Both the position numbers and the translations under genes were made by a program. From the IMG/VR virus record IMGVR_UViG_3300033388_007794, positions 1 to 50,807 of that record: DNA of 50,807 bases; one strand, 5' to 3'. Under the pieces are notes generated by a model that saw only the letters and a program-made list of their open reading frames with translations, was not told where the DNA came from and searched no databases. Each line of letters begins with the position of its first letter. Within the stretch, counting starts at the first letter, position 1. Source of the DNA: a virus. Positions 1,116 to 50,709 of this stretch are shown piece after piece.

Positions 1116-2018
1116 CTACAATCTCCTCCGGGCAATTCCTTCACAGCAACGGCATGCAGGATGCAAAGGCGGCCCCACAATTCCACCTTCATAAGTCCCG
1201 TTTATCGGTGCTCGCTTGCCGTCCATCTCCTCACAACGTTCACAAGCCCGCTCATCAGGCGTATAAATCCATTCCCTCTCTACTTCGTTCGGATCAAGCA
1301 ATCCTTCCTCCACCGCCTGGGACCAGCATTCTCGCACTCCATAATTGCTGGCGGCCATGGTTTCAGTACGCGCAATCAGCTCCGCTCTTCTCCGCAGCAA
1401 CCGCTTCGCGTAATTGTCCGCCATCTCATTAACCTGTTTTAGCGGCCGCGTGCCGTCTTCGGCAAGCCTCCGCCAGTAATTATCGACGGCCCGCATTTGT
1501 CTTTCGGTCAACCCGATATAATTTCGGATTTTCCTCGCCTGTTCATATGGATGCCCGCCCTCCTCAAACGCCTGGCGGATTATCGCCCGGATGGCCTGAC
1601 GGCTTTCCTCGGTTATCTGCGTAATCAGCTCACCCGTGTGCTGGTTTATAAACTCAACCGCCCTGGGGTTGAGCAGGTCAAATCGAAGCTCCGCTTTCAG
1701 TTTTTCGCCCAGCCTCCGGGCGGTGGCTTTTCCCACTTCACCCACGATCTCCTGAAAAGCATCCTTTACGGTTATGAACCCTGCTCCGAATACGCCCCAA
1801 TCGATCATGTTCTCTACCGAAGCTAAGTCGCCATGCCGTAAAGCTTCCGCCATCCTCGCCACTACAACTTTCCCCTGTGTTGCGGCTACGGCAAGAAAGA
1901 AAGCTCTCTTGACTTTATCCAGCTTGCTGTCAGCTACGCGGTGGAGCAGTTTCCACTCCGGGTCTTTTGGGTTTACAGCTTTTAGGATGCGCTGCTTTGG
2001 TAGCCTTGAAATGAACAT
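1116..2018 (-). CDS. Phage head morphogenesis protein (SPP1 gp7 / MuF family)
   Basis: A 300-residue minor head protein that in SPP1-type phages binds the portal and enters the capsid. The C-terminal third has the family signature: RTET near residue 217, a CxxC pair (about 259-262) and the terminal PPLHPACRC motif. The N-terminal two thirds are helical. The ATG overlaps the portal stop codon as TAATG, so the two are probably translationally coupled. The order terminase-portal-MuF is canonical. Length and motifs look intact. Confidence 0.9.
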   Translation of the reverse strand: MFISRLPKQRILKAVNPKDPEWKLLHRVADSKLDKVKRAFFLAVAATQGKVVVARMAEALRHGDLASVENMIDWGVFGAGFITVKDAFQEIVGEVGKATARRLGEKLKAELRFDLLNPRAVEFINQHTGELITQITEESRQAIRAIIRQAFEEGGHPYEQARKIRNYIGLTERQMRAVDNYWRRLAEDGTRPLKQVNEMADNYAKRLLRRRAELIARTETMAASNYGVRECWSQAVEEGLLDPNEVEREWIYTPDERACERCEEMDGKRAPINGTYEGGIVGPPLHPACRCCEGIARRRL

Positions 2019-3292
2019 TATTCCTCATCCACTCCCCCGCTGGGCAGATTGGCTACTTCGAGCAGGTACTTCTCAAGCTCTTTGTTTGGGAACAAAGGCA
2101 TGCCTGCCCCGCTGAGCCGTTGTATAAATTCCCCAAGTTCGCTTAGTTCTACGCTCTCAATGTCCCCGTGGCGAAGCTCGGGGTAATTCTCGACCTTAAA
2201 GTCGTTAAGCTTGAACAGCCTTGACACCGCGTGGGTGTTAAACACATTCTCAATCTCGTCCAGGAAAGCACCAATAGCCACGGCAAACAGATTAGTTTTG
2301 GAACTTGCCAAAGCGTAGCTCCCCACTTTCTGCGTCCCCAGCATGATAAAATCCGCCAGTACGGTCTGGGCAATCCGAGTGTCGTACCTCTGGATAATAG
2401 CACCGGTGTCGAACTGCCGCCTGCCTCCCGTCGAAAGCAACTGAATGTCATACAGTCTATTCCCTTTCTCGTCATAAGCCAGTGGCATGACTATACCTTC
2501 CTGCTGGTCGCGACGTATTTTAGTTACTAGTTCTTTAAACTTCCGTTGCGCCGTTCTTTCCTCATCCGTCTGGGGGTTGGCTACATTAGGCGGCACCCAC
2601 ACGATGGGGAGCCCCGCTAAATCACGCTCAATTCCAATACCCTCAATAGCCTCGATATTCTTTTTGAAATAGTAACTTTTATATGCATTTCTAAGAATCG
2701 ACCTTCCTTCCGGCGAGCCTTTGGTCGCCTCTGTCCTGAAAAGCAGCGACTTTTCTATCGGAATTTCCCTGATTTTATAATCCGGCGGCGCGCTTTGCCG
2801 CATAGCTTGTATGCCGCCTTCCTCGTCGAATACCCACTCAACAAGCGTTTCCTGCGCCCGGATAGGGAGCTTGCGCCAGCCGATGCGACCGTCGGTGTAT
2901 TTACTTCGCTTCGCGGGGTTGCGGCTGTCTCCCATACGGCGCTTCAGGACTATTTCATGCCAGGACCACCCGAATACCAGCATAGACAGAACTTCGCTAA
3001 TTGTATCTTGCCAGGACATACTCATATCATAGAGACAGCTTTCCAAAAACGCTGCCGCTTCCCTGTCAGCGTTGCTCGTCCCGGCGGCTTCAACCCGCCA
3101 TGTAACCTGACGGCAGAGCATCTTGATAGCAAACAGAATAGCGCCAATTACCGGGTCGTTATCACGCATTTCTTTATAGACTCGGATGGCTTTAACGCCC
3201 TGGAGCTCGGGCAACCACTCCTCGGCTATGTAGCCGCCCCAGCGAGATAAGCCTGTGCTGCCCAATTCAAGGAAAATGTTTGTCTGCGCCAA
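2018..3292 (-). CDS. Portal protein
   Basis: A 424-residue protein matching phage portal proteins of the Mu gp29-like (DUF935) type. The N-terminal half has a typical segment on repeated sampling of cell or helper regions (VYKEMRDNDPVIGAILFAIK) followed by a tryptophan-rich wing region (FGWSWHEIV). The portal forms the dodecameric DNA entry channel at one capsid vertex and docks the terminase. It begins four bases after the large terminase stop and overlaps the MuF start. Family subtype is an inference from order and composition. Confidence 0.88.
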   Translation of the reverse strand: MAQTNIFLELGSTGLSRWGGYIAEEWLPELQGVKAIRVYKEMRDNDPVIGAILFAIKMLCRQVTWRVEAAGTSNADREAAAFLESCLYDMSMSWQDTISEVLSMLVFGWSWHEIVLKRRMGDSRNPAKRSKYTDGRIGWRKLPIRAQETLVEWVFDEEGGIQAMRQSAPPDYKIREIPIEKSLLFRTEATKGSPEGRSILRNAYKSYYFKKNIEAIEGIGIERDLAGLPIVWVPPNVANPQTDEERTAQRKFKELVTKIRRDQQEGIVMPLAYDEKGNRLYDIQLLSTGGRRQFDTGAIIQRYDTRIAQTVLADFIMLGTQKVGSYALASSKTNLFAVAIGAFLDEIENVFNTHAVSRLFKLNDFKVENYPELRHGDIESVELSELGEFIQRLSGAGMPLFPNKELEKYLLEVANLPSGGVDEE

Positions 3293-43841: not shown

Positions 43842-44174
43842 TCACTTTCCTTTTGCCTTGTCAAGATTGAGCGGAGCAAGTTCATCCATTAACCGCTCTT
43901 CTCGCTCTGTCTGCCTATCTTCTTCCTCCGGTGTCAGGGCCTTCCCGGAATGGCGTTTATCCCCATGATGGGTACGCTCAGCGAGGCCGATAAACTCGGC
44001 CCCGCATTCAGCGCATTTATAAGTTTCAGCTTTCTTCTCAACCGGGGCAAAGTAGCCCAGGCGTATTAACTTTTCATCATTTTTCGCGCCAACAAGTTCT
44101 ACAATTTGTCCCCGGTCAAGTTCCTGTCCAGCATAGCCGAAAGGACGTCTGGCCCAATAGTATTTTTTCGGCAT
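43842..44174 (-). CDS. Hypothetical zinc-finger protein, 110 aa
   Basis: Contains CAECGAEFIGLAERTHHGDK, a C2H2-type pair, and a charged end. The N-terminus (RRPFGYAGQELDRGQIVELV) resembles a small beta domain found beside phage capsid genes. It overlaps the capsid stop by one base. Confidence 0.65.
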   Translation of the reverse strand: MPKKYYWARRPFGYAGQELDRGQIVELVGAKNDEKLIRLGYFAPVEKKAETYKCAECGAEFIGLAERTHHGDKRHSGKALTPEEEDRQTEREERLMDELAPLNLDKAKGK

Positions 44175-45130
44175 TATGCGACAGCCCCCGACATAAAGAG
44201 TCCGGCGTTGGCACCGGTCTTCTTCTGGTCAAAATAAGTGTTCGCCTCTATGATGTCCACTTCACGTTCCTCATCGCGCATCCGCTTGATGTACTGAAGC
44301 GCGTTTGCTACTACCTGCCAAACAAAGGTATATCCGGCAGCAGGGGTAAGCAGAGACGGCCTGTCGGGTACATAGATCATCAGGGCGTTCTTCCCCCAGA
44401 TCCGGCTGTACGATACCGAAGCCTCAGCAGTTCCTTCAGGAGATGCAGTATAAATCGCACGACCAATCAGCACTTTTTCAAATTCCGCCAGGGCTTTGAA
44501 CAGGTCAAGAGTAAGTTGCCCCTTTTGGGTGTACTTAATTGTGTCAATTAAATCCGGGTGCCACTTCAGTTTTAACCAAACTTGCTTACCTAGTACCAAC
44601 ACATTAGGCTCGCGCCCGATTAAGGCTTCAACTGCATCTTTATAGTCGGCCAAATCGACTAGCGGGCTGGAATTGGCATAGTCGCTCCAGACAGTAAAAT
44701 CAACACCTCCGGTCTTGTCCGTACCCCAAACACCGGTCGTGAAAAAGTCGGTAGCGAAAGCAACCTCCCGGCGCATCTGAAGCTTATCCGTCACCCATTC
44801 GGTCGCGTCCCGGTCGAGGTTGAACGGCGCGTCTGCATTCTTCCTAGTTTCATCGTCGATCTCTTTCCTGATCGAGTACCGGTCGCAGAAGTACTTCGCA
44901 GTCGTTGTTACCTTCCATCCGCCGCCGGCAGACTTGGTGCCAGGCGCACGCAGCTTGGCCTCATCCCTGAACCAGTGAGACTGGTCGTACTGCGGGATGA
45001 TGTCCGACTGTTTCTGCACAGGTACAATCGGGAAAATCTGGTCAGCAATATATTCGGGGTTCTTATAGCCAATAGAAATGTTTGTGAGAAGTTGATCAAT
45101 ATGGAGACTCGAAGCCACAGGGTTAGCCAT
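44174..45130 (-). CDS. Major capsid protein (HK97 fold)
   Basis: A 318-residue capsid protein (IADQIFPIVPVQKQSDIIPQ, YDQSHWFRDEAKLRAPGTKS, RRVAF-type helix MRREVAFATDFFTTGVW, C-terminal IIEANTYFDQKKTGANAGLF). These segments are typical of phage capsid proteins near DUF2190 decoration genes. The order scaffold-decoration-capsid supports it. Confidence 0.9.
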   Translation of the reverse strand: MANPVASSLHIDQLLTNISIGYKNPEYIADQIFPIVPVQKQSDIIPQYDQSHWFRDEAKLRAPGTKSAGGGWKVTTTAKYFCDRYSIRKEIDDETRKNADAPFNLDRDATEWVTDKLQMRREVAFATDFFTTGVWGTDKTGGVDFTVWSDYANSSPLVDLADYKDAVEALIGREPNVLVLGKQVWLKLKWHPDLIDTIKYTQKGQLTLDLFKALAEFEKVLIGRAIYTASPEGTAEASVSYSRIWGKNALMIYVPDRPSLLTPAAGYTFVWQVVANALQYIKRMRDEEREVDIIEANTYFDQKKTGANAGLFMSGAVA

Positions 45131-45160: not shown

Positions 45161-45550
45161 TTAAGTTGTGCTCAGCGTGAACGGCCCAGTCAACAGGACG
45201 CGAATAACCGTCCCATCGGCAGACGAAGCATCAAGCGCAATGCCGGCAATAAAATCCTTGTCAGTTGCCTTCTTTACGGCCTTGCCGCTTGCGTCTGTGC
45301 CTACGTAGTCTCCGACAGCAATGTTGGTACCGGAGCCGTCAGACACGACCTTACTGATACCTAGAACTCGAACCTGTGCCGCATGGCCTGCTGTAGGTTT
45401 ATTCTGCAATACACCGATCGGCTTGTCTGCTGCGTTATCGCAGACATCCACCTGGTCGGCGGCACTCAGCTCAACAAAGTAATACTGCTTTGAACTCAGG
45501 TCGTTCTCAGCCTTTGCGCTGATGTCGAATACAGCCATTTCGGTTGCCAT
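45161..45550 (-). CDS. Capsid decoration protein (DUF2190-like)
   Basis: From ATG 45550, nine bases after GGAGG, a 129-residue beta-rich protein (KPIGVLQNKPTAGHAAQVRV, GISKVVSDGSGTNIAVGDYV) with the pattern of DUF2190 decoration proteins that trimerise on the capsid surface. Confidence 0.85.
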   Translation of the reverse strand: MATEMAVFDISAKAENDLSSKQYYFVELSAADQVDVCDNAADKPIGVLQNKPTAGHAAQVRVLGISKVVSDGSGTNIAVGDYVGTDASGKAVKKATDKDFIAGIALDASSADGTVIRVLLTGPFTLSTT

Positions 45551-45564
45551 CAATATCTACCTCC

Positions 45565-46443
45565 TTAAATCTTGACCGCAGTCTCTTTGCGGTACTGCTC
45601 ATAGAGCTTAGGGTTCTCGGCCAGCACTTTTGCCAGTGCGTCCATCCTGCTCAAGTTGGCGTCTTTCTGCACCAGCCCCGCTGCCATGGCCTCGACCTTG
45701 GCAACAGCGGAGTCGCCAGCAGGCATGCCGCCTCGACCAATTTCGGCGTAGAGTGCGCCTTTCTCAATGGCTTCATTAGCCGCCTTCAGTACACCTTCGA
45801 GCTTGGTGTACTCTTCCGGCGCTTTTTCAGCCAGGCCCTTGAGCACCAATCCGAATTCTTCCGGCTTGGTTGGTAAATTAGCAAACTCGTCAGCGGCTTT
45901 CTGAATAAACTCCTTGCGAAGCTGCTTGTCGCGCTCTTCCTTGAGTACTTTTTCAAGCTCTTCAGCTTTCTTGACGGCTTCCTGCTGTTCTTTCCAGAGT
46001 GCCTCTACCGCAGGACGAACTTCTTCTGGAATGCCGGAAAAGTCATAGCTTCCGTCTTCCTTTTTGGTCGGTGCCGGATAGCCATATTTCTTCTTCTTGT
46101 CCTCTTCTTCATCTTTTTTGCCCTTAGCCTTCTCAGCCGGTTCGGGGTAGCCGTAGCCGGCAAGACCGGCTAAGGTTTTCATGATGTCTTTCGGGAGCTC
46201 GTCCTTGTATGCCGACAAAATTTTGAGTGCTCCTTTTACGGCTCCTTTTGCTTTGTCGGACAGCTTGGCTGCTTTCAAAACCTCTTCGACCTTCTGCTCG
46301 TCTTCAAGTTCAGTTTCCAAAACAGCCTTGAGAATTTCTTCCATAGGTGGATCATCCTCCTTAAAAATTAGGAACTTTTTACGATTTGCCCCGCGTGGGA
46401 CGAGGCTCACTTCCACAACATCTAAATCTTTCAGCCTATTCAC
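45565..46443 (-). CDS. Scaffold-like capsid assembly protein
   Basis: A 292-residue acidic protein. Residues 1-30 (VEVSLVPRGANRKKFLIF) are like the region following XkdF proteases. The rest is a highly charged helix (KAEELEKVLKEERDKQLRKE) as in scaffold proteins. It starts four bases after the XkdF-domain protein. Two near-identical GYPEP/GYPAP segments flank a Lys/Glu run. Confidence 0.8.
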   Translation of the reverse strand: MNRLKDLDVVEVSLVPRGANRKKFLIFKEDDPPMEEILKAVLETELEDEQKVEEVLKAAKLSDKAKGAVKGALKILSAYKDELPKDIMKTLAGLAGYGYPEPAEKAKGKKDEEEDKKKKYGYPAPTKKEDGSYDFSGIPEEVRPAVEALWKEQQEAVKKAEELEKVLKEERDKQLRKEFIQKAADEFANLPTKPEEFGLVLKGLAEKAPEEYTKLEGVLKAANEAIEKGALYAEIGRGGMPAGDSAVAKVEAMAAGLVQKDANLSRMDALAKVLAENPKLYEQYRKETAVKI

Positions 46444-46446
46444 ACC

Positions 46447-49400
46447 TTACACCACCTCCTCACGAATCCCGAAACCCCCGACACTAAAGCCCGTTATAAC
46501 ACCCTCTTTAACTTGTCTCCATAAATTGTCATCGCTAATATGAACGCTCATTATCCATGACCCCTTCTTGACCTTATGGCCGTTGATTTCTAAGTCCTGT
46601 GGAGCAGTATACGATTCAACAACTTCAGCTTTAGCTTTCTTGCTATGCCGATAACCAATCACACGGGATTTGAGCATAAAACGATAGGCCGCATCTTCTA
46701 TGCTCTGGGCTGATATAACATCGCCCTGAGAATCCACCGTGTCTGGTTCCAGAACTACTCCCGTTACTATTTGCTTTTCGTCCGCTTTAAGTATCGCGGC
46801 GTGGTATTCTTTAGCAACTTTGGCTTTTGCCACATCGATTTTTTGTACGGGCTTCCCTGGTTCATCAGCCCACAACAACCACTTTTGCCCCTTTTGCTTC
46901 AGCTCGCTTATAACATCAGCGAGGTCGTGGGTTTTTGTGTACGGTTCTTGCGATTTTGGCCGGTTCACAAGCCACACCCTGCGCCCCTGTTCCATCGGGG
47001 CATATTGGATAAGCAACCGTCCTTTCAGATGCTTGCCGTCTAAGAAAAGCTCGCGGCCATGCTCTCTAGCGAATGAGAACTTATATTCGCCACCGTCAAG
47101 CTTAAAAAATTTACTATACGTCTGGCTTGTAGAACCTGGCCCACCTGGCTCGGAGATATAGGGCTCTTTATCTGTAATAGTGATCCACTCAACTGGCTGG
47201 AATAACTTAAACTGGCCCTGTAAGCTGTCATCGGGCGGCAGTTCAAGCAAGCGGCTTCCATATTTTGTCTTGCGGATGTCTTCGGTATCTCCTTCAAAAA
47301 CCGAAAAGCCCCAAGCTGTTTCATCGTCTATCTGAAAGCGTAAATCACCGTGGACGCTATGATTAGTCTTCAATAGCTCCTCATGGCTAAGCTTGGTTTC
47401 TTCTTCTGTCAGCCCACGCCAGTGCATCTGATATACCCACCTGCCGCGCCCGGACTTGGGGTACATGTTATGCCACTCTTCTTCATATAGCTTTGCTGCT
47501 ACTTCAGCTCTGGTATCGCCTTCTTCGCCTAAACGGTCAGCTTTCTTCACTTGCTTTAATGCCTGCTTGATCTGCTTTACCTTCCTTGCTACTTCTCCAC
47601 TGTCCCCAAACCGCCTCACCGCTACCGGATGCGGCAAAACAAAATCCGCCCGGTCTCCCAGGACGGATTTGGCGGTCTGGCCGAGCGCCACTACAATTTG
47701 CGGGTTGGCTTTATCAAGTTCCTGATACAACCAGTCGCGCCACTCTTCTATTTCCTGCTCGTTCGGCTCTCTCACTCTTCCTCTGTCGTCCGTTAACAGG
47801 ACTGGCACAACGTTAGTCAAGAAAACGTCTTTTCTGGTTAAGCCCAATGGTTTCAGGTAAAGCTCGTTCAACGTTTCTCCACAAGGCCCGACAAACGGCT
47901 CTCCCCTTGCCGCTTCAATCGGGCCGGGGGAGGCACCAATAAAAGCTATCTTTGCATTCTTCGACCCGGTGCCGGGGACTATCTCCCGCGCGGCCTTTTG
48001 CAATACTTGCCCCCGTTTGGCAATGTCAATAGCTTGCGCAGCGGTGTATGGTTCTTTGCGTGTTTTGTCTACATCAATAGGACGCGCACCGAGCCAAGCC
48101 AGAACTTTCTTTTCTTCATCAGGGAGAAGTTCAAGTACTTCGCAGGTTATAACATCCCCGACCTGAGCCTTAACGGTGCTGGTGGAGAAAGTTTTACCTA
48201 AATCAATATATTCCTTGTCGCCAAGCTTTCGGGTATTACGCCACTCCATGCCCACGCTCGGTAGGAGGCCACCATAATAATTTACCGTGCCAGGCGTCTT
48301 AGTTTGCTGAACCTGCAATACTTTTACCTTTAATTCAATGACCTTTTTGACTTTGCTCCACTCGTCAGTAGCCCCGTCCAGTTCATACTTCCCGCTAGCC
48401 GTCTTTGCCACAAGCCCTTCCGAGCGATCCTGATTGAATGCCCACCGAGCAGCAACTTTAAGCTCCTGCAAATTATTGCACCATTTGACCTGGGTGATAG
48501 CAAAATTCTCCTTGCCCTTCAAGTACTTATCATAGAACTGCTCCAGCTTCTTCCTGCGTTCTTTAAACGGTTTTTCGTGCAGGTCTTCATCCCAGTATGG
48601 CAGGTCGAAAACTGTCAGTATCGGCGTTTCATTTTGTTTGATGTCCGGCTTGTCGGCATTGAAAGTCATCAGGTCAGGACGCGCCACCCGCTTACCGCCA
48701 CGGAGCATCCCCAAATCGCAGTCCAGGATGAAATCGGCATCTATTTTCTCTAACGCGGCTTTAAGGCCGGCGAACTTGTGCAGTTGGTCCTTACCGTACT
48801 GCCCTTCAAACCAAAAGCGAACGCCTTTACCTTTCTTACCCTCTGCTATTCCTCGAAAGCCATTGAGCTTACCTTCCACATCAAAAAGCGTTTTGTCTTT
48901 ACCCCACTTTTCCCACAACTCATCAACCGTATATAGCTCCGTATATAATGCCACCTGCGGCTTCGGAGGAATAAACTTCTGGAATGGCTCAAGTCCCTCC
49001 TTAGTTACGTCCTCCGGCTTGCGGAACACGCCACGCACATATACCAGATCACCGTTCTCGATCTCCTTCAACTTTTCGACCTCGAACTTCGGCCTACCCT
49101 CTAACAAGTCATCCTGGGTCCAGAAGACAAAGCTAGACTTATTCCAAAAGCTCTTGTGATCGGGATGGTTAAACGCACCCTCGCCTTTCGTGCTCGGTAC
49201 CTCAAACACGAACCTGCCGCCGGGCTTCAGCACGCGCCAGATTTCGGCCATGATTTTTTCTTTGTCCGACAGGTGCTCCAAAACGTGGTTTGCACGTATC
49301 TCATCTGCGCTGTCATCCGGGTAGGGTATACCTTGCTCAAGATCATGAAGCATGTCCACCTGCGGACCCGGCTCTTTGTCGATCCCCGTATAGCCTTCAG

Positions 49401-50157
49401 GTTTAGAATCGCCACAGCCGAGGTCGAGCTTAAGCGAATCCCCTTTTACTACCTGCCGCTTCGGTTCCTCACGCCGAAGAACTAACGAATAGCAGGGCAT
49501 GAAATCTGCATGGCTCCCCTGGGGTGAATCAATAAAATGTAGAATACCTTTCTTCTCTGGGTCCAGCACTTTCCGCACAGGCAACCAGACATTGTCAGCT
49601 TGGATGAGGAAGTTTTCTCCAGATTCGTCCCTGTTGGCCCTGAAAAGCACGTCTATATCGTTCGGGTTCTCTTTGCCAACAGCCGCAGATCCTACTACCG
49701 ACACGAAGTTGGGAACCACAACCACTTCCTCTGGCAGTTCTGCCAGCTTCGCCTCCAGGCTCTGCGCCTTCTTCACATCGCGCAGTTTCTTGGCCTCCTG
49801 CACAAGTTCGCTATTCTCGTCATAATCGAAGCCTCGCCGTTCAAATTCGTCGAGTACCCAAATGGTCGCATTTACAATATCCTCCACCGATTCCTTGCGC
49901 TTCTTAGCTGCGCTATACCATTGATGCAGCCTGAGCCATGCCATGCGAACCTCATCATCCGAAGCGCCCTTCAACTTATCAGGCCGCATCTCGGTCAGAG
50001 CCATCTTCTCCAGGAAAGACGGCTCCTCCGGCTCGCGCCAGCGGGCTTTGCCCCCAGCAGAGGGCATAGCAGCTTTATGCAAATCACGCATTAGCCAGTC
50101 GGGTAAGTATTGTTTTGCTTTTTCAAGAAGGGTTTCGAGATATTCTTTGCTTGGCAT
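46447..50157 (-). CDS. Giant multi-domain protein: nucleotidyltransferase, methyltransferase, ligase, uracil-DNA glycosylase, phosphoesterase, XkdF-like protease
   Basis: One 1236-residue frame. Residues 1-130 are helical. 145-230: Pol beta-type nucleotidyltransferase (GSAAVGKENPNDIDVLF, D167/D169). 240-375: class I methyltransferase (LDLGCG 244-249, VLEHL, VLKPGGRFVFE). 405-690: ATP-dependent DNA ligase-like domain with motif I KLNGFRG (430-436, Asn where Asp is usual), EGLVAKT (580-586), WSKVKK (600-605) and an OB-like end. 725-850: uracil-DNA glycosylase family (GASPGPIEAARGEPFVGPCG, LTNVVPV, LPHPVAVRRF). 895-1090: LigD-like 3'-phosphoesterase (HSVHGDLRFQI 933-943). 1115-1236: XkdF prohead protease. 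Located where the capsid protease belongs; may be packaged and self-cleaved. Confidence 0.85.
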   Translation of the reverse strand: MPSKEYLETLLEKAKQYLPDWLMRDLHKAAMPSAGGKARWREPEEPSFLEKMALTEMRPDKLKGASDDEVRMAWLRLHQWYSAAKKRKESVEDIVNATIWVLDEFERRGFDYDENSELVQEAKKLRDVKKAQSLEAKLAELPEEVVVVPNFVSVVGSAAVGKENPNDIDVLFRANRDESGENFLIQADNVWLPVRKVLDPEKKGILHFIDSPQGSHADFMPCYSLVLRREEPKRQVVKGDSLKLDLGCGDSKPEGYTGIDKEPGPQVDMLHDLEQGIPYPDDSADEIRANHVLEHLSDKEKIMAEIWRVLKPGGRFVFEVPSTKGEGAFNHPDHKSFWNKSSFVFWTQDDLLEGRPKFEVEKLKEIENGDLVYVRGVFRKPEDVTKEGLEPFQKFIPPKPQVALYTELYTVDELWEKWGKDKTLFDVEGKLNGFRGIAEGKKGKGVRFWFEGQYGKDQLHKFAGLKAALEKIDADFILDCDLGMLRGGKRVARPDLMTFNADKPDIKQNETPILTVFDLPYWDEDLHEKPFKERRKKLEQFYDKYLKGKENFAITQVKWCNNLQELKVAARWAFNQDRSEGLVAKTASGKYELDGATDEWSKVKKVIELKVKVLQVQQTKTPGTVNYYGGLLPSVGMEWRNTRKLGDKEYIDLGKTFSTSTVKAQVGDVITCEVLELLPDEEKKVLAWLGARPIDVDKTRKEPYTAAQAIDIAKRGQVLQKAAREIVPGTGSKNAKIAFIGASPGPIEAARGEPFVGPCGETLNELYLKPLGLTRKDVFLTNVVPVLLTDDRGRVREPNEQEIEEWRDWLYQELDKANPQIVVALGQTAKSVLGDRADFVLPHPVAVRRFGDSGEVARKVKQIKQALKQVKKADRLGEEGDTRAEVAAKLYEEEWHNMYPKSGRGRWVYQMHWRGLTEEETKLSHEELLKTNHSVHGDLRFQIDDETAWGFSVFEGDTEDIRKTKYGSRLLELPPDDSLQGQFKLFQPVEWITITDKEPYISEPGGPGSTSQTYSKFFKLDGGEYKFSFAREHGRELFLDGKHLKGRLLIQYAPMEQGRRVWLVNRPKSQEPYTKTHDLADVISELKQKGQKWLLWADEPGKPVQKIDVAKAKVAKEYHAAILKADEKQIVTGVVLEPDTVDSQGDVISAQSIEDAAYRFMLKSRVIGYRHSKKAKAEVVESYTAPQDLEINGHKVKKGSWIMSVHISDDNLWRQVKEGVITGFSVGGFGIREEVV

Positions 50158-50172
50158 TTGTGATCCCCCAGT

Positions 50173-50709
50173 TTAAAAAAATCCCTGTGCGGGGCTGTAA
50201 GTTACTGCCGTCTTTTTTGACTGCCATTTCAAAGACGGTAGTGTACCAAATCTAAGCAGGTGTAAAAGATCATTTTTGCCACACACTTTGCCGTTAATTT
50301 TGATCCACTCGCTATCATCTGGCATTGTACGGGAAAATACAACTAAATAATGACCGCGATACTCTATTTTTCTTTTCCCGCGCATCGTTTGAACTGGTAC
50401 TCCATTTTTCGCTCCAGTTTCCAACAGTTGCTGTATGATCCGATGTGTATCAGATTGGTTCGCTGTAATACTTTTGCCAAATTGCTTCTCTTCTAATGTG
50501 ATTAGCCAACCTTCGCGGTAATTGAACCAGATATAGTCAAGGTTTTGACAATCAAAAAACCTGCTACTTAACTCTTCTGGACATTGTGCACTTCTTAACC
50601 AGTCGCTAAAGGGAGTAGAGCCGGTAGCAGGGCTACCACAAACCTGGCATATTACTGGATACTGGCCACAGGCCGGACATCTCGCATAATAAAAACGTTG
50701 CTTAGTCAT
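50173..50709 (-). CDS. Zinc-ribbon protein with possible nuclease domain, 178 aa
   Basis: Two CxxC pairs at the N-terminus (CPACGQYPVICQVCG, 11-25) form a zinc ribbon. The middle (LDYIWFNYREGWLITLEEKQ, then SDTHRIIQQLLETGA and YRGHYLVVFS) may be a PD-(D/E)XK fold with E-x-K. Its ATG overlaps the methyltransferase stop as ATGA, so the two may work together on phage DNA. The nuclease reading is tentative. Confidence 0.7.
   Translation of the reverse strand: MTKQRFYYARCPACGQYPVICQVCGSPATGSTPFSDWLRSAQCPEELSSRFFDCQNLDYIWFNYREGWLITLEEKQFGKSITANQSDTHRIIQQLLETGAKNGVPVQTMRGKRKIEYRGHYLVVFSRTMPDDSEWIKINGKVCGKNDLLHLLRFGTLPSLKWQSKKTAVTYSPAQGFF

Follow-up and report, generated by a model that had tools for sequence, protein, structure and literature searches.

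A candidate self-processing phage head polyprotein that couples a ligase and 3'-end-healing core with exchangeable cassettes

IMG/VR virus record IMGVR_UViG_3300033388_007794 was analyzed over its whole length of 50,807 nt (hereafter, the window), and we focused on a fusion gene on its minus strand, an intact open reading frame (ORF) of 1236 codons (46447..50157; ATG start at 50157, TAA stop at 46449-46447). The 1236-aa product comprises, in order, a helical region, a nucleotidyltransferase (NTase), a methyltransferase, an ATP-dependent ligase, a uracil-DNA glycosylase (UDG)-superfamily domain, a LigD-type 3'-phosphoesterase (PE), and a C-terminal XkdF (S78_2) protease. A first-pass annotation had named these enzymes as parts of a single frame, and all of them were located there, on the minus strand, by Pfam, Foldseek, motifs, or matches via relatives. 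Related loci are labeled L### or P0002.

An N-terminal leader (residues 1-50; 50008..50157), delimited by alignment and missing from L005 and P0002, precedes the helical domain (residues 51-130; 49768..50007), for which AlphaFold predicted helices at a predicted local distance difference test (pLDDT) score of ~65-85. The Pol-beta-like NTase (residues 135-235; 49453..49755) was assigned from GS...DxD...D motifs (GS 156-157, D167, and D169), weak PF01909 matches, found in relatives only, and a profile match to the archaeal virus ANMV-1. It is followed by an S-adenosylmethionine (SAM)-dependent methyltransferase cassette (residues 238-385; 49003..49446; PF08241, Methyltransf_11, 5e-11). The ligase, with adenylation and oligonucleotide-binding (OB) domains (residues 395-700; 48058..48975; PF01068, 1.3e-14), resembles DNA ligases (Foldseek, E 2e-15) and has its nucleophile, K430, in the motif I sequence KLNGFR. 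The UDG-superfamily domain (residues 715-865; 47563..48015; PF03167, 3e-21) resembles UdgX/family 4 enzymes (Foldseek, E 1.9e-10), with GASPG at motif 1 and H843 in the HP motif; both folds were therefore as first annotated. No Pfam match was obtained for the PE in the window protein itself (residues 880-1105; 46843..47520; H912, H936, D938, and R940), but the homologous region scored above the LigD_N (PF13298) cut-off in the relatives P0002 and L057 (36.6 and 32.8 bits versus 31.1), and that of P0002 matched the LigD-PE structures 5dmp, 3p43, 3p4h, 3n9b, and 2lj6. The XkdF/S78_2 head maturation protease (residues 1110-1236; 46450..46830; H1171 and S1225) was the clearest assignment by profile (PF14550, 5e-29, 101 bits versus a cut-off of 24; phrog_3017, 1.7e-38). 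AlphaFold models were good for the ligase and UDG parts and poor for the PE, NTase, and methyltransferase parts, and no argument about active-site geometry is therefore drawn from the model.

Using the PE domain as bait, successive scans returned 14, then 19, then 80 viral loci. The PE is carried by 74 related ORFs, of which 58 are complete (median 1180 aa, longest 1846), from dozens of metagenomes as well as from two genomes of Bacillota. The architecture recurs in independent contigs and in a Bacillota metagenome-assembled genome (MAG; L019), and the second Bacillota genome, P0002, has a variant of it. Custom domain profiles gave a conserved order of helical region, NTase, [cassettes], ligase, [cassettes], PE, and XkdF. 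Among the 74 ORFs these profiles detected XkdF in 68, NTase in 62, ligase in 60, the helical region in 58, UDG in 43, and methyltransferase in 23, together with rarer Dam (4), X110 (4), and metallo-beta-lactamase (MBL; 3) cassettes. A Pfam scan of 43 members agreed with the custom profiles and added Acb1, 2H, DHH, and MBL cassettes. XkdF is the last domain wherever it is present, except in L096 and L098, where a scaffold-like Lys/Glu-rich tail is fused behind it (L096:6235-7020; L098:8995-9780); the L098 tail showed no similarity to the window scaffold by BLASTP.

The Acb1 anti-CBASS domain was found in one relative only, a 1403-aa protein in which it lies between the NTase and the methyltransferase (L115:6532-7335; 83 bits versus a Pfam cut-off of 27, 1.9e-23; match to Acb1 in the PDB, 1.8e-8), and both HxT motifs are present (HAT and HVT). 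The MBL cassettes matched PhnP-like and RNase Z structures better than Apyc1, for which the match was weak (E 1.3e-4), and that of L065 gave no Apyc1 match; Apyc1 is therefore no more than a possible identity for them. A cassette of ~100 aa of unassigned type, 'GTEVGVARARDLSNRR...PSAQWIAWLLWGGD', occupies the NTase-ligase interval at L079:219-662, L091:6589-7029, and L134:6589-7029. A separate 822-aa phage ORF (L025:5989-8454) seems to join a UDG domain to a DNA polymerase of family A.

Residues expected for catalysis are strongly conserved in three of the domains. The protease His and Ser are each kept in 67 of 68 aligned members, and the PE equivalents of LigD His42, His48, Asp50, and Arg52, compared on the basis of the residues required by LigD-PE (PMC8656161), are invariant (73/73). 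The ligase nucleophile Lys is kept in 58/59, and E580 and K602 are nearly invariant, so that motifs I, IV, and V and the OB domain are all recognizable, although the motif I Asp is Asn in the window and about half of the family has KxNG. Because of this conservation, activity is probable for the protease, PE, and ligase.

Several domains have evidently moved independently of one another. The window protein and L002 are 94% identical in the PE and 48% in XkdF; the window protein and L008 are 95% identical in the NTase, yet L008 carries the other PE type. In L013, an MBL domain takes the position of the methyltransferase in others, and the position of the X110 cassette (~110 aa), like that of Dam, differs between relatives. 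These alignments indicate that domain versions reassort separately among relatives; assembly mixing could mimic part of the pattern, but it recurs across many contigs. Among close relatives, nonsynonymous divergence (dN) is low in every domain, with synonymous divergence (dS) saturated. Two inserts were seen in ligase regions. L011 has a LAGLIDADG intein-like insert near motif IV, and L010 has an insert of ~840 bp within the OB region (L010:4172-5035) and an intein-like insert in its MuF gene. The ~840-bp insert had no tRNA or Rfam match and so is not of a known intron family.

The linkers between domains share a hydrophobic-x-Lys motif, [VIL]xK[AGES], which occurs in five of the six linker windows of the window protein. 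The candidate cut sites, all on the minus strand, are VKKA between the helical domain and NTase (residues 128-131; 49765..49776), proposed by inference; VVKG between NTase and methyltransferase (236-239; 49441..49452; K238 invariant in A2); VTKE between methyltransferase and ligase (384-387; 48997..49008; K386 invariant in A4); LQKA between ligase and UDG (719-722; 47992..48003); VKKA between UDG and PE (870-873; 47539..47550; K872 invariant in A2); and VAKE between PE and XkdF (1114-1117; 46807..46818; K1116 invariant in A2). In L008 and L013, the motif stands on both sides of the inserted cassettes. Among sequences outside the defining set, the motif was enriched 2.84-fold over 247 junctions, and the enrichment was 2.7x in 34 and 2.8x in 15 non-defining representatives (60% and 50% identity sets; p 4e-13 and 2e-7, respectively). 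Control motifs with Arg or Glu gave ~0.8-1.0x, and K[AGES] without the hydrophobic residue gave 1.06-1.23x. The motif is therefore a candidate cut signal, compatible with self-processing.

The fusion gene lies among head genes in a temperate phage contig that also has a serine integrase gene. Directly downstream on the minus strand are genes for a scaffold-like protein (45565..46443), a head decoration (cement) protein (45161..45553; PF09956, 7.6e-10), and the major capsid protein (44174..45130; phrog_1005, 9e-92). Genes for MuF (1116..2018; PF04233, 5.9e-12), portal (2018..3292; phrog_113, 3e-83), and terminase (TerL) are at the opposite contig end on the same strand, so that on a circular map MuF would be the nearest head gene upstream of the fusion. 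This split is as expected of a circularly permuted map; no terminal repeat was found in the contig. With XkdF at its C terminus and its gene between the MuF/portal and scaffold/capsid genes, the protein occupies the slot of the capsid protease, as had been annotated. Throughout the family, MuF was a neighbor at 42 of the 56 loci with enough upstream sequence and a scaffold homolog at 42 of the 48 with enough downstream. The scaffold-like ORF is in the same frame after the TAA, but readthrough into it was rejected: the TAA stop is present in 8/8 relatives checked, and the scaffold gene has its own GTG start and a Shine-Dalgarno-like GGAGG, which points to coupled translation. The scaffold-like protein contains 11 candidate cut motifs against 3.3 expected.

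The domains, their order, the location among head genes, the protease, PE, and ligase motifs, the reassortment of cassettes, and the linker enrichment are best read as the anatomy and context of a capsid-delivered, self-cleaved toolkit, an idea already put forward in the first-pass annotation. We consider it probable that the fusion is a head-borne polyprotein of the polyvalent kind, ending in an assemblin-like peptidase, which is cut in head maturation and whose cargo is injected. The C-terminal XkdF protease, encoded next to the scaffold gene, would bring the whole protein into the procapsid, where it would cleave at the hydrophobic-x-Lys motifs and release the enzymes. These would be retained in the head and reach the cell along with the DNA. 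Once inside, the core (PE, ligase, and usually NTase) could mend and join broken ends of the incoming DNA, and the swappable cassettes (methyltransferases, Dam, UDG-like domains, 2H, DHH, and MBL phosphodiesterases, and Acb1) could oppose host defense. Cleavage at the candidate sites, retention in the head, injection, and the substrates of the enzymes are what we infer from this anatomy.

A number of observations weigh against this interpretation. S78_2 was present in 19 of the 399 Bacillota genomes sampled, with open-frame lengths of 78-501 codons except for two of 1241 and 1173; the 17 short genes imply that a head can do without the cargo. The linker motif was defined post hoc, any Lys is 1.5x enriched in linkers, and in the distant relative P0002 alone the linker motif reached only p = 0.044; given the first and last of these points, the cut signal is a prediction rather than a demonstration. 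Some catalytic residues are also missing. The PE position aligned to the essential His84 is mostly Asn or Lys in the family and Ser in the window, for which H1033 is a possible substitute. In the UDG domain, the motif-1 Glu (GExPG) is found in none of 41 aligned copies, 33 of which have Ala; the window copy has one Cys (C759) and lacks the Fe-S cysteines, and the HP-motif histidine is kept in 39/41. The window NTase keeps GS and DxD, but its third Asp is Ser224, as Ser is in 7 relatives, compared with Asp in 54/63 family members. Because of these losses, UDG catalysis is doubtful, and the NTase of the window copy may be dead.

The first-pass annotation had proposed a narrower function, a capsid-delivered repair kit for base excision and end repair. 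Its end-repair part is supported: the ligase and the 3'-end-healing PE form a coherent pair, are outnumbered as cargo by no other domains except the NTase and helical region, and have conserved active-site motifs. Base excision is a doubtful fit: a UDG-family domain is present in 43/74, but it has lost the motif-1 Glu everywhere and the Fe-S cysteines in the window copy, it can be replaced by Dam or by nothing, and no apurinic/apyrimidinic (AP) endonuclease or polymerase domain accompanies it. The swappable Acb1, 2H, DHH, MBL, and DNA methyltransferase cassettes make the cargo wider than repair. 'Repair kit' is therefore too narrow a name, and a function dedicated to the repair of damaged virion DNA is unlikely. 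It is also possible, with a lower probability again, that the enzymes work at the procapsid in the producing cell, for example by sealing or marking DNA in packaging, before being lost along with the scaffold. This would suit the late head-gene position and the apparent translational coupling to the scaffold gene; against it, Acb1, 2H, and Dam cassettes are better suited to early infection, and the polyvalent precedents P1 DarB and N4 vRNAP are virion proteins (PMC5512222). RNA repair ranks below both and is improbable. Here the NTase, ligase, and PE, delivered or made late, would repair tRNA or other RNA that anticodon nucleases of the host have cleaved, as a counterpart to phage Pnkp/Rnl/RlaP sets (PMC7824862). 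PF09414 RNA_ligase is an additional match in three members and mRNA capping enzyme in one, about half have the Asn in ligase motif I, and ribonucleotides can be PE substrates (PMC8656161); but by both fold and profile the ligase is closest to DNA ligases that have an OB domain, and the domain scans gave no RlaP or kinase/phosphatase family match. An assembly chimera or accidental functionless fusion has a negligible probability despite frameshifts by small duplications or deletions in L006, L009, and L012, because a Bacillota MAG and numerous independent contigs share the architecture, the 74 ORFs are mostly intact, dN is low against saturated dS in every domain, and active sites are invariant; the frame is genuine.

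A capsid-delivered polyprotein has precedent in the polyvalent proteins (Iyer et al., 2017; PMC5512222), in which the assemblin-like peptidase is always C-terminal and virion processing and injection were predicted. As in those proteins, disparate enzyme domains (NTase, Dam, and 2H among them) are joined in one polypeptide with a C-terminal assemblin-like peptidase, in portal/terminase phages and a head/MuF neighborhood. By contrast, DNA ligase, glycosylase, and LigD do not occur in the main text of that paper, and the present family keeps the NTase-ligase-PE order in dozens of phages, with UDG, MBL, DHH, and Acb1 cassettes. Bacterial nonhomologous end-joining LigD (PMC8656161) likewise has a PE and an ATP-dependent ligase in one chain, with the equivalent His42/His48/Asp50/Arg52; here, however, there is no match to POL (the AEP primase), the PE is C-terminal to the ligase, the His84 position is changed, and a head protease is fused. 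Ordinary XkdF/S78_2 proteins (PF14550, phrog_3017) have the same domain, catalytic His and Ser, and gene slot, but their usual genes have about 150-500 codons, whereas here the protease ends a cargo protein of 1100-1850 aa. The methyltransferase-annotated profile phrog_1530 (379 positions) matches S78_2 in its C-terminal part but is without ligase, PE, UDG, and NTase. The portal protein of Pam3 (PDB: 8hds) is a head protein with an Acb1-like C-terminal stretch, but the match is weak (E 0.003) and there is no protease or other cargo. The ANMV-1 protein AJP62006.1 (KP703175) has NTase, ligase, and PE in the same order between portal-like and MuF-like genes, but it has 866 aa, a different C-terminal domain, and no XkdF match. 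It lies at L059:3200-5800, annotated as DNA ligase, and the adjoining portal-like gene bears the annotation 'MutT-like phage hydrolase'; its role is not treated in the text of the genome paper (PMC4372165), and no relatives of it were found in viral contigs.

In 50,697 records of isolated phages, the PE and helical-NTase regions were unmatched and the ligase matched only ANMV-1. The earlier statement that no described phage protein has this domain set therefore stands in part: the full set is absent from these ~50,700 records, and a literature search, with subscription journals outside its scope, found no paper on it, but the general kind was described in 2017 (PMC5512222). Relative to the text of that paper, what appears new is a core for end healing and sealing, combined with cassettes that reassort, Acb1 included. 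More tentatively, and at somewhat less than even chance, the family may represent a widespread undescribed class of head polyproteins, in which a conserved NTase-ligase-PE core on the head protease carries reassorting anti-defense cassettes, cut at a shared signal and injected, so that the virion would deliver a modular payload for both counter-immunity and repair. If so, it would show how a phage delivers enzymes prior to gene expression, with cargo attached to the head protease, cut free where a predictable signal lies, and exchanged through recombination, and a virion-borne ligase and 3'-end healer would be an unusual means of rescuing broken incoming DNA. The candidate signal and protease make the polyvalent-protein idea directly testable, and the unassigned cassettes that share slots with Acb1 and Dam are candidate new anti-defense proteins.

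Further observations concern the neighboring genes. The interval from the fusion gene to the contig end in the window contains a 178-aa ORF (50173-50709, minus strand) with no Pfam or PHROG match. In L019, an intein-like LAGLIDADG insert is present within the portal gene (L019:3261-5648), and in L011, MuF is separated from the fusion by an MT-A70 adenine methyltransferase gene (L011:4674-5879). The P0002 giant is immediately preceded by a 1127-aa MuF protein (L045:10464-13844, minus strand) that has long extra C-terminal regions and is likely to be a second polyvalent protein.

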